A stretch of 52,250 bases of DNA. Source: an uncultured Prevotella sp. (GTDB lineage: Bacteria; Bacteroidota; Bacteroidia; Bacteroidales; Bacteroidaceae). Location of the stretch: assembly GCA_945834405.1 (NCBI GenBank), contig CAMAHD010000003.1, positions 1 to 52,250 of the forward strand, written 5' to 3'. The notes under the pieces are model-generated. The model worked only from the letters and a program-made list of their open reading frames with translations, ran no database searches and was not told where the DNA came from. The position numbers were made by a program, and so were the translations under genes. The first letter of the stretch is position 1. Every line of letters starts with the position of its first letter. Positions 4,501 to 25,371 of the stretch are shown here, one piece after another.

Positions 4501-5988
4501 ATCATGGCCATTGGCATAGTTGAAAGTTTCTTCACAAAGGTCACCGTCCCAATAGATACGCATGTTTTGGGCAATGTCGTTTTTCGTGCCTCCGCTCAGT
4601 CCTGCATAGGTGACGGAACTGATCAGTTTGGGGTCGCGAGCTGATGAGCCTTGACAGCCGGGGAAGTCGTTGGAGAAATTTCCCATGATGGCGCGACCGT
4701 CATCACTGCTGGCTGAATTTCTGTATAAAATCTTGCGCGTGGTGGCATCACAGAAGTTGTTTCCGGGATGGTCTTCGTTAGCACCGAAGAATTCCAAACC
4801 GGGGCGATAGGGGTCGAAGTCGCTTACATGCTGGGCATCACCGTGACCAAGACCGCTTGAAGCCAGACCTTTTCCGTTGTCATCAATAGTCATCGAACCA
4901 AAGACGATTTCATCTCGTCCGTCCATGTCCACGTCGGCTACTACATAGTTGTGGTATCCCTGACCATACCAGATGCCTGGCGTGTTATTGCTCCACTGCC
5001 AACGTACAGTGAGTGCGTGAGATGATGGGTCTACATCGTATGCAATCATCTTGTGGCGGGTGTAGATACCACGAGCGAGGAAGATGCTGGGCCTGTGACC
5101 ATCGAAATAGGGTGCTCCGAAGAAATACTTGGAAGAACGGTGTCCATAACCGTCACCCCAAGCAGCTTCAAGATTGCTCTCACCAGCTTCCAGCCTCTTG
5201 AGGGGATAGTCCATGACTTGATATGGCTCTGCTGTTTCTCCGTTCAAGTAGAGCAAGTACTCAGCACCTTCATGAACGAACCATTGTCCGCTTTCTGTGG
5301 GGCGGTAGTTCTTGGAAGCGTTACCTATTGTCTGTGTCGTTCCGTCGGCTTTATAGATAACTGTTCCGTCAGCAGCACGCATGATACATTCTGCTTTGCC
5401 GTCAAGGTCCCAGTCATAGCAGGCAATATTGATTTCGTTGTTCTGGAAGTCACCCATGTTCCTGCCGCAGTTGATCCACCACAGCAGGGTGCCATCAAGT
5501 TTGAGCGCTTCGATGATGGTGTAGATACCATCACCGGTGGTAGCGTGGTCGTACTTGACTATCAGTTCCAATTGTCCGTCACCATCTAAGTCTGCAGCTG
5601 TTGCATCATTAGGAATGAAGGTGCCGTTCTTTGCCTGATGTTTGGGGACGATTTCCAGATAGTTGTTCGCCATGGGTTGTACTTCTGCACTCTTGGCCTG
5701 GGCTACACCCCTGACAATAGCCTCAACGGCATATTTTGAAGTGGTAGTACCTCCTGCATCTGTATAATTCGATACAGTCAGTGGTTCGGCATTGAGTTTG
5801 GTGCCGTCACGATAGATGTTATAGGTAACATCATAGTACTCTTCTCCCAAAATTCGCCAGCTACAGAATGCTCCTGCAGATGTTTTGACTGCAATCAATC
5901 CACGGTCTACCCGGTCTGTTTGTCTCTGAGCTTGCAGGTTGAGAGCCAGCAGGCACAGAAGCGTCATTAGTAGAATTTTCTTTTTCAT
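1507..5988 (-). CDS. Rhamnogalacturonan lyase (PL11-like) fused to autotransporter-type beta-helix repeats and a T9SS-like C-terminus
   Basis: N-terminus resembles the YesW/PL11 family (RQTDRVDRGLIAVKT...FCSWRILGEE; DLDGDGQLELIVKYD; DWDLDGKAECIMRAADG; DVDMDGRDEIVFGS). The central and C-terminal parts carry 'SVLTKTGAGSLTLGSGNNISKLVIKSGAV' style repeats. C-terminus 'CKVYSLTGQHIGTFKS...TLLIKMQTATKTEVRKV' is sorting-domain-like. Confidence 0.88.
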   Translation of the reverse strand: MKKKILLMTLLCLLALNLQAQRQTDRVDRGLIAVKTSAGAFCSWRILGEEYYDVTYNIYRDGTKLNAEPLTVSNYTDAGGTTTSKYAVEAIVRGVAQAKSAEVQPMANNYLEIVPKHQAKNGTFIPNDATAADLDGDGQLELIVKYDHATTGDGIYTIIEALKLDGTLLWWINCGRNMGDFQNNEINIACYDWDLDGKAECIMRAADGTVIYKADGTTQTIGNASKNYRPTESGQWFVHEGAEYLLYLNGETAEPYQVMDYPLKRLEAGESNLEAAWGDGYGHRSSKYFFGAPYFDGHRPSIFLARGIYTRHKMIAYDVDPSSHALTVRWQWSNNTPGIWYGQGYHNYVVADVDMDGRDEIVFGSMTIDDNGKGLASSGLGHGDAQHVSDFDPYRPGLEFFGANEDHPGNNFCDATTRKILYRNSASSDDGRAIMGNFSNDFPGCQGSSARDPKLISSVTYAGLSGGTKNDIAQNMRIYWDGDLCEETFNYANGHDTEGVILKYGKGVIATFTGSMTNNYTKGTPCLQADIFGDWREEVVMRTADNNIRIYTTTSPTPWRNYTLWHDHQYRNAIVWQMNGYNQPPHASYFLGELEGITMAPPPLTTVGRTVVANGETIGSALDDKHLLLDENNDMTVTISEGAKPYILTDNAPSWTQGSGNNANIKTSYYTHTLTGGSLTGEMRLVKQGEGTLVLPAVTHSYTGKTMVWNGTLVCDGTLTNSPVWLNRHTTLISNGGKFEKGIQANYNATIIPGGNNVKGSITTDTLALNFGSTVSFDLFSEDMSADLLNANVLKIEKNTWREGPSNKTPIFKLTGHAADGSSKIAEGKYLIGTIGKIEGNLEDIVLVGFSDMKSSLSWEDGKLYVSISAYQAGKVVWTGQAGTTWNTDETANFKAEGSEEARNFFPEDEVIFDDSAAETMIVVSGKVAPKSIVFANNSKNFTLLGDSIVGQPSLSIEGSGKVTVNNVNRIGNTTLQSGKLSVTKLANTIGTDYGALGGVSSKIHISNNATLQVTNDVTTSQTITIGSGGGTIEVNSGKTLTMSTGIKSGATGSVLTKTGAGSLTLGSGNNISKLVIKSGAVNAIVSDGINQLPSTVVFEGGTLYDSNSEYMPGNTNSANYVVEEGQSGTLYCDPRCDYTGKLTGAGTFTVYAAGVRNYFKGNWSSFEGTLVPGLSKRGSYDPSFDWSNTYGLPNATLKLNSGVIFKNGGKDVVLGGVSGTGTLEGTGSYYVGDKNDDFIFTPYTNSKIVKRGEGTMKIMSLGRINAAVEVRAGCLTFNQSSLSTAVTGTNTLTVKGTGKVMGQGLVNAITVASGGQLLPRGTYMENIPGTIKTTGVLTSSSGSTIDLLITNSKNSQLQTKYLTLNGTLKISLSEDFVPTAGATYTLWTTSASFAGTPTLSLPELPEGFAWDTSELLSSTGILKISNTNAINGIAESEEVTCKVYSLTGQHIGTFKSMKSDIKTHLRAMGTYGKTLLIKMQTATKTEVRKVNW

Positions 5989-20576: not shown

Positions 20577-23360
20577 TTACTCCACATCATATCTGTCCGC
20601 ACCTTCATTCCAGTTCATCGCATCTGTCAGCTCGTGGATGACGCAGAAGGATGATGTCTTGATGGATGTAGCGTTGCTTGCTGCATTGCCATTGAACCAG
20701 AAGTCGCGTGCCATCTGATTGGAGAGATATTGATTGTTCTTCGCATCTATTGTATGTGTCTTGCCGCTGTTGTCGGTCAGTAAAAGCTTGCCGTTACCGC
20801 CAGAAATCTGGTTGGTTATGGACACACCAATCTCGTCGGTGAGGAAGGTGTTATACTTTCCGCTGGCTACAATGTTGTCCGCATAGATGGAAACACTCTG
20901 GAAATGATAACGGACGAATTTGCGGATGATGTCAATCTTCCTGAGCATGTCTGCCTTGCCATTCTTCAGGTCTGGGTCATTTTCATCCAGTTCTTGCAAC
21001 AGACTGAATTGGCTGTCCAGATCCTCTGCCTTAGGAAGTCCCTTGGCATAGGCTGCCTTCATGGCATCATTGTTGGGCGCAAAAAGGGTGTAGTTGTATG
21101 TGTTGAACATCTTGACGTTCATGTCTAAACAGGCATCAGCAATGGCATTGCTACCTGTGCCATAGGTGTTGGTAAAGACAATGTAACGGTCCTGTGGACT
21201 TACGCCGAATTCGTTAGGACTATCACTGATGCCCAGCCAGTTCATCAGCTCGTTGCTACCCGTCAGCCATACACAAAGGTCAAAGAACTCGGAGAAACGC
21301 TGGTTGGTTTCCAGGGTCTTGTATACGCTGTTACGTGGACCTTCTATGACATGGTCAAGACGGAAGGCAACACCATTGTCTTCTGCGAATACTTCCTTGA
21401 TGACCGAAGGTGCCTGGTTGTTGTCAATTTGTGCTCCGCTGACAACCTTTCCGCCAATAGAGGCTTTGTCAATTTTTATAGTACCGCCATTCTTGGTCTT
21501 GTAGTAATTGTTTAATCCAAAGGTTTCGCCTGCATCCAACACAACCGTGTGGTAATTAAGAATGTCATTGATCTGTGATTGCAATGAATTGACGTTGGAA
21601 ACTTCAGAAACAAATTCACCTACGCTATTGGTTGTCGTATTGTACTTATAACGTTGCGCATTGAATTCATAGCGTTTGTTCCTCTCATTATAGACGTATG
21701 AGAAACGAATGGCTTCTGGTTCTACGCGACCTAAAGTAGCTGGGTCGACATAAAGATATTTGGCAAAAGCTGAGTCTTCTGGAATGAAGAAGGCATAGTT
21801 GGCTTGCATGGCAAGAAGATAGTACTTGAAGTCGCTACCTGCACCAGAGCTGGGCTGTTCTACCATCCACTTCATTACCTGAAGGTCTTCGTACCAAGAT
21901 GCAGGTGCAAAGACAGAACTGAACTCATCGGGAGCTCTCAGGCGGTCAATCTTGTAGATGACACCATTATTCGCAATCCTCACATCATACTTGTCGTCCT
22001 TCTTGGTCAAGTCGTTCAAGGTGATATTCAAGAATTCACCGCCGTCGCTTGTCAGCATGCTGAACTTGCTGGGTACAGATGCAGAGAATGATGACATCTG
22101 AAGGTTACGGATAATCTTGGAAATAACGTCGGGACGCTTGGCAAAAAGGGAATCCAGATTGTCCGTAAGATTTTCTTCTGTATTCTCTTTCTTTCCGTAG
22201 ATAGTCATGAAGAACGAGCCGGCACCTCCTGGCAAGAAATATTTTTTGACTGCATCGTCAGTGGGGACGAACATGGCAGCAATATCTGCGATGGAGTTGT
22301 CGGTGAGACCCGTACTTTTCATCTGATAGGTATTCCATCCCGGGTCATACTTCAGAGTAGCGTCTACACGCTGGTTGTCGGGGTCGTTAGACAATTGTGT
22401 CAGCTGGGAGTTGTCCGAGAAATATCTCTTCTGGAAGATGGAATCTATGAGTGGTTTGCCATACTGGATAGCAGCTGCATTGTAGGTGTTGGTCGTTGCT
22501 GCATCATAGTAAGGAGCACTGAAATAATCCAGCATACGGCTGTACAGTTTCGTGTTACTGCCGTTGGCAATCTCCTGTGCCAGGTTGCCTGGAGGCAACA
22601 GGACGTCTTCCAACTGGTGAATATAACCATTCTGACAGGTCTTGCCATCACTGTATTCTCCTTTGGTGATGATTTTGTTATTGTAGACATACGCTGCGCC
22701 GTCAGTGTAGGGCTGGCCGGTAAGTATTTCGAAGTCGCTGCCTTCACCTAATGTCGAGATGTCGTTGTTGACAAGATATTCGCGCGTCAGATGAACCATC
22801 ATAGGTGTCGTGTTGTCACAGACAAGATCGATACCGTCTTTGTGCTTGGTCCAATACTTGTTGCTCTTAGGCATGTCAGCCAAAGAGTAAATATGCGTAA
22901 TGGCATCTGTCGCACTGATGGCTGTCTGGTGTTTGATGGCATATCCACGAAGGATGCCGTCGGTACCGTTGGTGTTGGATAACATACTGACAAGCATGGC
23001 ATTGTCAATCATTGACGAGTAGAGTAGCAATTTCTTTTGCGACTCAGTGAGCTGGTCGTAAGACGTCACTCCCCATTCGTTGTTTTTGAAAAAGCGGTCG
23101 AAGGCTTCGTCGTTAGCAGGGAAGATAGTCTTGCTACCTGTTCTGTTAAGCGTTTCCGCGTACCCCAAATCATCCACCAAACGCAGGTAGGTGTTGAACG
23201 TACCTGTCAATGCGTTCTGATTGGGATTCTTCAATTCCGCATAAATGCTTTCTCCCAACCACTCAGGTTTGGAGTCAGCATCCACTTCCTCGTTCTTGTC
23301 AATACAGGAGGTTGTAAGTCCTGTTAATACAAGAGAGATACAGAAAAAGAGTTTCTTCAT
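20577..23360 (-). CDS. Multi-FAS1 (fasciclin) domain lipoprotein, about four FAS1 units by eye
   Basis: Lipobox 'GLTTSCIDKNEEVD'. Repeated FAS1 signatures: 'LNRTGSKTIFPANDEAFDRF', 'IAAMFVPTDDAVKKYF', 'YAFFIPEDSAFAKYL', 'NYTLFAPNNDAMKAAYAKG'. Confidence 0.86.
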   Translation of the reverse strand: MKKLFFCISLVLTGLTTSCIDKNEEVDADSKPEWLGESIYAELKNPNQNALTGTFNTYLRLVDDLGYAETLNRTGSKTIFPANDEAFDRFFKNNEWGVTSYDQLTESQKKLLLYSSMIDNAMLVSMLSNTNGTDGILRGYAIKHQTAISATDAITHIYSLADMPKSNKYWTKHKDGIDLVCDNTTPMMVHLTREYLVNNDISTLGEGSDFEILTGQPYTDGAAYVYNNKIITKGEYSDGKTCQNGYIHQLEDVLLPPGNLAQEIANGSNTKLYSRMLDYFSAPYYDAATTNTYNAAAIQYGKPLIDSIFQKRYFSDNSQLTQLSNDPDNQRVDATLKYDPGWNTYQMKSTGLTDNSIADIAAMFVPTDDAVKKYFLPGGAGSFFMTIYGKKENTEENLTDNLDSLFAKRPDVISKIIRNLQMSSFSASVPSKFSMLTSDGGEFLNITLNDLTKKDDKYDVRIANNGVIYKIDRLRAPDEFSSVFAPASWYEDLQVMKWMVEQPSSGAGSDFKYYLLAMQANYAFFIPEDSAFAKYLYVDPATLGRVEPEAIRFSYVYNERNKRYEFNAQRYKYNTTTNSVGEFVSEVSNVNSLQSQINDILNYHTVVLDAGETFGLNNYYKTKNGGTIKIDKASIGGKVVSGAQIDNNQAPSVIKEVFAEDNGVAFRLDHVIEGPRNSVYKTLETNQRFSEFFDLCVWLTGSNELMNWLGISDSPNEFGVSPQDRYIVFTNTYGTGSNAIADACLDMNVKMFNTYNYTLFAPNNDAMKAAYAKGLPKAEDLDSQFSLLQELDENDPDLKNGKADMLRKIDIIRKFVRYHFQSVSIYADNIVASGKYNTFLTDEIGVSITNQISGGNGKLLLTDNSGKTHTIDAKNNQYLSNQMARDFWFNGNAASNATSIKTSSFCVIHELTDAMNWNEGADRYDVE

Positions 23361-23451: not shown

Positions 23452-23566
23452 AAAATCGCAAGTTATTATCTATTATTATAGACAATTTCCCAATAATTAC
23501 AGAAGAAATGAGAGGATAGGCACTCGAAAATCTTCGGTCTGTACGAATGTACGAGGTAGCCGGATT

Positions 23567-23610
23567 TGCAGGTACGGGGTACCTACAATTGCAGGTACCC
23601 CGTACCTGCA
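23567..23610. repeat. Perfect 18-bp inverted repeat with nested palindromes
   Basis: TGCAGGTACGGGGTACCT (23567-23584), 8-nt loop, AGGTACCCCGTACCTGCA (23593-23610). Each arm contains GGTAC-N3-GTACC. Confidence 0.9.
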
Positions 23611-23693
23611 ATCTGCCAGTTCTTTAAACAGCCTTCATTCCCTGACTTACATTCCTTGCTCATGTTGAAGGGAATGCTGTTCATGTTCAACAG

Positions 23694-23735
23694 GGTCATT
23701 AGGTCATTTGGTCATTAGGTCATTTGGTCATTAAG
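23694..23735 (+). repeat. Left octamer array (GGTCATTW x5)
   Basis: ggtcatta ggtcattt ggtcatta ggtcattt ggtcatta ag. Inverted copy at 24061-24102. Confidence 0.9.
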
Positions 23736-24060
23736 ATTATTTCATCCTCAAATGGACGTTTTTAAAGAAAGAAAATATAAATTTTCTCGACTTTCGAAAG
23801 TAAAGGTGTCTGTTGGAAGTTAAGGTATTCAGCCAAATGCTATGGCGCTTATATCCAATGCTCAACACTAATGGCTTTTTCGCTACACTCAAGGGAACTT
23901 CTCTTAGCGACCGAAGGGCGTGATAACACCTTAACTGCCAAAAGCTTGAGTACATGCGACCATTGAAAGAATATATCATATTTGTATGTAAACACTTGCG
24001 GATTCGCAAAAGTGGGGGTGCGTTACTATCAATGAGAAATCTGAGAAACATTGCATTTCT

Positions 24061-24102
24061 CTTAATGACCAAATGACCAAATGACCAAATGACCAGATGA
24101 CC
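24061..24102 (-). repeat. Right octamer array, inverted relative to 23694-23735
   Basis: Reverse complement is ggtcatct ggtcattt ggtcattt ggtcattt ggtcatta ag. 39/42 identical to the left array. Confidence 0.9.
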
Positions 24103-24324: not shown

Positions 24325-25371
24325 ATGATGGATAAGATGGATGCCGTTAATTTATTGAAAGAACTCATTGCTGTTCCCTCTGTCAGCAGGGATGAGACTC
24401 TTGCTGCAGATTTGTTGCAACAGAGAATGACTGAATGGGGGTTGAATCCATGCAGAAAGGGAAATAACCTTTACTCGCTTGACCCCCAGTATGACGAGAG
24501 ACGTCCCACCGTTTTGCTGAATGCGCATATCGATACCGTTAAACCAGCCGCATCTTGGACAATGAATCCTTTTGAGCCATTGGTCAAGGGAGATTATCTG
24601 TTTGGATTGGGGAGTAATGATTGCGGCGGAGGTCTGGTTGCTCTTCTCCACGTATATCGGACACTCATTTCTCGCGCGCGTACATATAATTATATATATT
24701 TAGCGTCTGCCGAAGAGGAGGTGGGCGGCAGCAATGGCATCAGCTGTGTCTTGCCTTCATTGCCTCATGTTGACGTGGCTGTCGTTGGAGAACCTACAGG
24801 TATGCAACCGGCAGTGGCTGAGAGAGGGTTGATGGTGGTGGATGGTATCGCCCATGGACGTTCGGGACATGCGGCACGCCAAGAGGGCGTGAATGCTATC
24901 ACCGAGGCTCTCGACGATTTGGTATGGTTGAGAGACTTCCGTTTCGAGAAAACAAGCGAGTTGCTGGGGGAAACCAAGATGAGTGTGACGGTGATACAGG
25001 CAGGTACTCAGCATAACGTGATACCTGACGAATGTCATTTCGTGATAGATGTGCGTACTAATGAGTGTTATACCAATGAGGAAGTCTTCCAGGTGATAGA
25101 TGCGCATACCAAGAGTGAGATGAAGGCACGCTCTTTCCGCCTCGGTTCGTCCGCTATTTCTCTTACACACCCTTTGGTAAAACGTTGTGTAGAGTTGGGT
25201 ATGAAGCCTTTTGGGTCTCCTACTTTGTCTGATCAGGCATTGATGCCTTTCCCCTCCATGAAGTTAGGCCCCGGTGACTCGGCACGCTCGCATACTGCTG
25301 ACGAGTATATCCGTATCAGTGAGATAGAAAAGGCAATTGACCTTTATCTCCTTTTGTTTGAACATTTCTGA
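24325..25371 (+). CDS. M20 family metallo-hydrolase (ArgE/acylornithine- or acylcitrulline-deacylase-like)
   Basis: 'PTVLLNAHIDTVKP', 'GLGSNDCGGGLVALL', 'SAEEEVGGSNGI', 'AVVGEPTGMQPAVAERG', 'GRSGHAA' are M20 zinc-peptidase motifs. Confidence 0.88.
   Translation: MMDKMDAVNLLKELIAVPSVSRDETLAADLLQQRMTEWGLNPCRKGNNLYSLDPQYDERRPTVLLNAHIDTVKPAASWTMNPFEPLVKGDYLFGLGSNDCGGGLVALLHVYRTLISRARTYNYIYLASAEEEVGGSNGISCVLPSLPHVDVAVVGEPTGMQPAVAERGLMVVDGIAHGRSGHAARQEGVNAITEALDDLVWLRDFRFEKTSELLGETKMSVTVIQAGTQHNVIPDECHFVIDVRTNECYTNEEVFQVIDAHTKSEMKARSFRLGSSAISLTHPLVKRCVELGMKPFGSPTLSDQALMPFPSMKLGPGDSARSHTADEYIRISEIEKAIDLYLLLFEHF

Follow-up and report, generated by a model that had tools for sequence, protein, structure and literature searches.

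The closest described systems to the locus analysed here are the intervening sequences (IVSs) of 23S rRNA genes that carry the S23/IVP reading frame in Coxiella and Leptospira (PMC4990558). The Coxiella IVS has a 28-bp inverted repeat at its bounds and three tandem GACAGAT heptamers ahead of the S23 open reading frame (ORF); the number of heptamers varies between strains, one strain carries an ORF deletion, and RNase III cuts the sequence (PMC4990558). The spread of rRNA intervening sequences and the role of IVP/S23 were left open in that work, as was the origin of dispersed intergenic tandem heptamers in another (PMC4679880). Published accounts of such heptamers, from Cyanobacteria, Beggiatoaceae and Bacteroidetes, name no carrier element (PMC4679880, PMC4692102).

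The stretch of DNA considered here (the window, 52,250 nucleotides) belongs to contig C3 of a Prevotella assembly of 182 contigs and 2.67 Mb, 88.9% complete. It contains, in the intergenic region that separates the genes for a fasciclin-domain protein and an M20 peptidase and not in an rRNA gene, an element bounded by inverted tandem octamer arrays. Our reading, to which we assign a probability of roughly 0.6, is that a gene-less element A with inverted GGTCATTW arrays is split there by a gene-less element B with degenerate AGTTAAGG arrays, both belonging to one class of hairpin elements with IVP/S23-encoding members. The ends of this class are probably inverted arrays of a 7–9-nt word, common to the two arms of a copy and different from copy to copy. 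The class, made of short, selfish-looking elements of Prevotella and other bacteria, is apparently large and undescribed. The best explanation of its gene-carrying members is that they encode the IVP/S23 four-helix-bundle protein (PF05635), and the 23S rRNA intervening sequences are best explained as members sitting in rRNA genes.

The likeness to the rRNA IVSs of Coxiella and Leptospira lies in long-stem terminal inverted repeats (TIRs) with short tandem repeats near the ends, and extends to a four-helix-bundle ORF in full members, a sporadic distribution, ORF-deletion derivatives and copy-number variation between strains (PMC4990558); the window element differs in being intergenic and in lacking the ORF. 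The STRR of heterocystous cyanobacteria and the TAACTGA and GGGAATC heptamers are, like the window arrays, dispersed intergenic tandem arrays of 7–8-nt words, although they were published as arrays of unknown origin and not as the ends of a gene-carrying element (PMC4679880, PMC4692102). On plasmids of Nostoc and Calothrix, STRR-type heptamers proved here to form the arms that enclose IVP genes.

Eukaryotic foldback (FB) elements carry long, internally repetitive TIRs around a core. This arrangement is shared by the window element and by Galileo, which is eukaryotic, of kilobase scale and associated with a P-element-type transposase, whereas none was found for the window element (PMC3573991). 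Within the Bacteroidota, the BrickBuilt and PgRS MITEs of Porphyromonas gingivalis are likewise intergenic, MITE-like and rich in tandem repeats, but their 23- or 41-nt repeats lie inside, between IS5-like terminal repeats, while the 8-nt repeats of the window are themselves the ends (PMC4596501). REPINs are also miniature dispersed bacterial hairpins; the window element differs from them in lacking the GTAG end, and no RAYT was found in its genome (PMC3116915).

Nested elements in the window

The first-pass annotation of this DNA had described inverted five-copy octamer arrays around a 325-bp core, and both the arrays and their positions were confirmed by TRF and an inverted-repeat search. 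The left arm of element A, (GGTCATTW)5 followed by AG, lies at 23694–23735 on the forward strand; the right arm, at 24061–24102 on the reverse strand, is its inverted counterpart with 39/42 identity. Each array is a tandem 8-mer (TRF period 8/16), and the arms can be extended to 23694–23736 and 24060–24102 with 93% inverted identity. They are the sole inverted tandem-array pair of the 52-kb window, and none occurred in 60 third-order Markov windows (3.1 Mb). The RNA fold predicted for 23694–24102 reaches −139 kcal/mol (z = −8.9 against dinucleotide shuffles), in support of the very long RNA hairpin proposed in the annotation, and with such inverted arms A can form a long stem as IVP/IVS elements do.

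The neighbouring genes are a divergently transcribed fasciclin-domain gene on the left (20577–23360, reverse strand; PF02469) and the M20 peptidase gene on the right (24325–25371, forward strand; PF01546). An IVP/S23 ORF is absent between the A arms, the window core has no Pfam match, and no IVP gene (PF05635) was found in this genome (88.9% complete); the window copy is therefore called a gene-less relative and not a full IVP element. The interpretation in the annotation stood in part: the element ends and the hairpin held, while the core as one unit and its 111-aa frame did not. That frame (23737–24072, reverse strand) belongs to no Pfam family, spans repeat B and is judged not to be a gene, but an open-frame artefact across two repeats. 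A search of Rfam returned only chance miRNA matches to a GTAC palindrome, and neither the window region nor the genus hairpin described below had a BLAST match among plasmids and phages.

Rather than a single unit, the core holds a second dispersed repeat, element B, at about 23793–23967 on the forward strand (23818–23967 by BLAST, the left end placed by eye from the C2 copies). Its other copies lie on C137 (84%), C126 (85%), C2 (three copies, of which two form a tandem and the third lies at the contig end), C30, C15 and C139. The better-preserved ones bear their own arrays (AGTTAAGGAGTTAAGG...CCAAATG and its inverse), which in the window are degenerate. The left word array of the window copy (AGTTAAGG..CAGCCAAATGCT; 23816–23841, forward strand) matches the end of the IVP element at locus L264 with a score of 16.5 against a shuffle maximum of 13.5; the right one (AACACCTTAACTGCC; 23925–23944, reverse strand), inverted to 23810–23829, scores 11.0 against that end, equal to the shuffle maximum of 11.0. 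The intact C2 copy of B scores 35.5 (shuffle maximum 11.0) and agrees with the L264 end at 36 of about 38 bases, the inner CCAAATG included. The end of B thus matches the end of an IVP-carrying element, and B accordingly fits the gene-less state.

Copies of element A in the genome

Element A has terminal inverted repeats and dispersed copies, as classical MITEs do. Searches of the contig sequences, on which the genome-wide repeat counts rest, found at least three tandem GGTCATTW units on nine further contigs (C12, C16, C71, C73, C80, C121, C157, C165 and C176) and a tenth further array on C32, so that the array is not confined to the window, a point for which the annotation had proposed a check of the host genome. 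Most of these roughly ten other GGTCATTT arrays are single and several lie at contig ends; the class offers a reason why many contig ends of this metagenome assembly fall in such repeats. A further inverted GGTCATTW pair, with a short core, is found on C176.

Sequences next to the arrays recur as well. The inner left flank of A (TATTTCATCCTCAAA... followed by an AT-rich stretch; 23737–23790, forward strand) is common to the arrays on C121 (82%; score reached by 0/500 shuffles) and C73 (85%; 5/500), and the inner right flank (24023–24060, reverse strand) to the array on C16 (C16:29001–29074, 80%; 1/500). The AT-rich stretch inside the C73 array is a reverse match to its C16 counterpart (score 36, 0/500 shuffles). 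An intact A would consist of the left array, about 27 bp, an AT-rich core, about 35 bp and the right array, the window copy being an interrupted one. Upstream, a module at 23643–23693 (forward strand) travels with the array (85% identity on C73, 84% on C12).

Further out, TRF and the inverted-repeat search detected a GTAC-rich hairpin of inverted and tandem 23-mers (TTGCAGGTACSSSGTACCTGCAA) at 23566–23611, with no strand assigned. Six array sites (the window, C12, C73, C16, C32 and C176) have a hairpin module with GTAC (TTGCAGGTAC...GTACCTGCAA) about 25–85 bp upstream of the array, which suggests that GTAC hairpin and array form a recurrent composite. A third dispersed repeat (GTTGTGAATGAGCTTTTGAGCACGCCCTG...) and words of the type TTATAATTT in tandem lie next to the arrays on C165, C157 and C32 (loci L054, L061 and L063).

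The GGTCA hairpin family of Prevotella

The exact three-unit pattern is present in 10 of 150 Prevotella genomes (reversed control, 0), and in these relatives it almost always takes the form of an inverted pair that makes a hairpin of about 150 bp. With a covariance model built from ten such hairpins, a hairpin with the same arms was found in at least 98 of 398 Prevotella genomes, a lower bound, as are all counts with this model, for which at most seven candidates per genome were scored. Each arm contains four GGTCA direct repeats at steps of 7–11 bp, the ends read GCGGTCA...TGACCAC, and the core is AT-rich. Variant words (AGTCATT, AGTCATTT, GGTCATTTT) occur in both arms of one copy, i.e., they covary. 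In the genome of the window the model matched only parts of arrays, plus one short inverted pair on C176. The window's own core gave no match to it, and the kinship of A to the family consequently draws on the word and orientation of the arms and on the architecture. The genus hairpins may form a distinct family whose ends happen to be similar, since their AT-rich palindromic core is absent from IVP elements. No IVP gene was seen between GGTCATT arms, the closest IVP-element word being GGTCATA/GGTTATA at locus L274. That A belongs to the IVP class is hence something we infer.

The ends of these hairpins bear on two other accounts of mobility. If A were a conventional MITE, it would derive from a DDE-type insertion sequence, lack autonomy and be mobilised in trans; its TIRs would then simply consist of tandem GGTCA sites, to which several transposase protomers bind. 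The four GGTCA pentamers per arm, with their 7–11-bp spacing and variable spacers, do resemble binding sites, and conserved ends, dispersed copies and an AT-rich core agree with such an origin. We nonetheless consider it unlikely: the annotation had seen no obvious target-site duplication at this element, 48 genus-level GGTCA elements yielded none either (100 shuffles were exceeded at no offset and at no length), the GGTCATT loci that were read showed no parent insertion sequence with ends of this kind, and one transposase family would not explain why many unrelated words have the same architecture at one site. Short dispersed intergenic hairpins without target-site duplication would also be expected if a RAYT (Y1 REP-associated tyrosine transposase) moved the elements, as in REP/REPIN systems. 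This account is largely refuted and its probability very small, as no Y1_Tnp (PF01797) occurs in this genome (88.9% complete) by a search that was positive in E. coli and four other controls, and the ends GCGGTCA/TGACCAC lack a GTAG or CGTC tag (compare PMC3733652).

Several hairpins of the family have recurrent surroundings. In many genomes, at L076, L074, L078, L172, L175, L180 and other loci, a GGTCA hairpin lies just 5' of a conserved promoter (TTCGTGAACCGCAATGNNAATGTTGTACCTTTGC), which at L076 drives an HU-HIG gene (PF18291); related flanks recur at these loci, and the triple-array end is mostly turned toward the promoter. L072 and L081 are related loci of one genome (G088) with common flanks, where a hairpin of 91 bp is an internal-deletion form of one of 151 bp. 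Tandem words of the ACGGACTTACAACGG and AGTCCGTTGTAA type adjoin GGTCA hairpins at L201, L203, L204, L197 and L200 (G111, G233) and have the appearance of another family of dispersed repeats.

IVP/S23 genes between inverted word arrays

Inverted word arrays are not confined to the GGTCA word. In 80 named Prevotella loci (809 kb) 25 inverted pairs with many different words were detected, whereas neither Markov sequence nor 200 kb of E. coli gave any, and two of the 25 enclose an IVP-like ORF, confirmed as PF05635 at L140. The family itself is common in the genus (174 of 200 Prevotella genomes, with up to 15 matches each). With a detector and a score cut-off set after examples had been seen, the flanks of IVP genes formed an inverted repeat with a score of 16 or more in 20 of 27 Prevotella loci, and in later samples under the same scoring this was the case for 15 of 16 loci of a second Prevotella batch (35/43 in total), 11 of 12 plasmid genes and 28 of 37 loci on viral contigs (22/28 without duplicates). 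Among control genes, inverted arrays enclosed dtd in 0 of 30 cases and the M20 peptidase in 1 of 80. IVP genes are thus associated with inverted word arrays. The arms of different IVP loci match in only 17% of cross pairs, and the words are therefore largely locus-specific. The IVP gene is under purifying selection, with a median dN/dS of 0.09 (9 pairs).

The plasmid genes come from Cyanobacteria, Gemmatimonadota and Alphaproteobacteria (Calothrix, Nostoc, Trichormus, Geminocystis, Gemmatirosa, Azospirillum and others), and the IVP element of the Azospirillum plasmid sits in 23S rRNA. Three cyanobacterial plasmid elements (L286, L287 and L294) lie between operon genes, namely cas6/cas4, nrdB/nrdA and cas10/cmr3. 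The link of IVP genes to locus-specific word arrays outside rRNA appears to be new: it is not described in the papers found, a search of the literature outside most subscription journals and preprints returned no paper that connects IVP genes with tandem arrays of words, and a search for the word sequences themselves found no relevant paper. Present in Prevotella, Cyanobacteria, other phyla and phage contigs, this link joins the questions of how IVSs spread, what IVP/S23 does and where the heptamers come from.

As to mechanism, the element would be selfish and would spread by insertion, the IVP presumably acting on the nucleic acid of its own element during movement, and gene-less copies would be either moved in trans or relics. 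The arms may be kept complementary by foldback synthesis, one being copied from the other, with slippage altering both copy number and word. Once transcribed, the arms would form a double-stranded RNA stem cleavable by RNase III, which could make insertion tolerable in transcribed intergenic sites. A wider proposition, which we advance tentatively and with somewhat less than even confidence, is that a class of minimal selfish elements with inverted, copy-specific 7–9-nt word ends extends across phyla and is marked by IVP/S23 genes, that STRRs, 23S rRNA IVSs and the Prevotella hairpins, the window included, are states of it, and that IVP is its mobility factor.

Tandem arrays of the GGTCATTA/G type in two other Bacteroidota families (G495, G512) were mostly single or in short pairs and had no IVP gene. 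The sole viral-contig match to GGTCATTTGGTCATTTGGTCA, L169, is GC-rich, and its positions 5590–5640 hold an unrelated short inverted AAATGACC pair between genes.

Occupied and empty sites

An empty counterpart of the window site was sought through the M20 peptidase, but among 80 orthologs (about 63–70% identity, the nearest about 70% identical) none had the fasciclin gene adjacent. Two other intergenic sites, sdhA-sdhB and uvrC-dtd, offer concrete loci for testing movement.

Between sdhA and sdhB, 16 of 30 species are empty, with a gap of 1–21 bp, and eight carry an IVP element of 490–615 bp; the remainder comprises one gene-less arm pair (L331, 134 bp), one solo array (L335, 45 bp) and four cases of other sequence. 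The IVP gene at L319 in this comparison is the L258 locus of the PF05635 search. Full, gene-less, solo-array and empty states hence coexist at one site. Together with the dispersal of the arrays in the genome and the genus-wide relative of about 150 bp, a class with occupied and empty orthologous sites supports the view, raised in the first-pass annotation, that the arrays are ends of a non-autonomous element. Architecture, dispersal, nesting, the genus family and the occupied and empty sites are all directly observed.

At uvrC-dtd 30 loci were compared, both families being confirmed by Pfam. GGTCA hairpins occupy the site in G007, G267 and G222, also in G153, and only a short gap is present in G294, G018 and G265. 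By reading, many other loci have an AT-rich core flanked by inverted arrays in which the word is a different one: TTGCAATG (G258, G111, G249), TGTGACTT (G276, G292), TGTAACAT (G151), TTGCCACA (G157), ATGACAG (G269, G081) and TTCACAG (G090). The words of these hairpins are 7–9 nt long across species, and a strict detector independently flagged six of the loci at this site. GACAGAT, the heptamer of the Coxiella IVS, is also a uvrC-dtd word, in G199.

Such changes of word at dtd while the site stays occupied could also be expected of structures formed in place, i.e., conserved hairpins that serve the host (as terminator, processing site or promoter insulator) and at which replication slippage generates arrays, whose words turn over by concerted evolution without mobility. 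The covariation of the arms and the many GGTCA hairpins adjoining HU-HIG gene promoters point in the same direction. Yet empty sites with gaps of 1–21 bp stand beside occupied ones of 490–615 bp, similar copies are present at unrelated places in one genome, and elements are nested in one another, as A with B in the window and in G199 and G291 at dtd; an origin in place is thus quite improbable. Mobile hairpin elements of the IVP class remain our preferred reading of these sites.

The nested pairs at uvrC-dtd, L226 (G199) and L240 (G291), each consist of one word-array pair inside another with a different word, and resemble the arrangement of A and B in the window. At the same orthologous dtd site, the hairpins of L171 (G007) and L173 (G153) look more alike than their flanks, which are 74–84% identical, a likeness for which constraint, conversion or independent insertion are possible causes.
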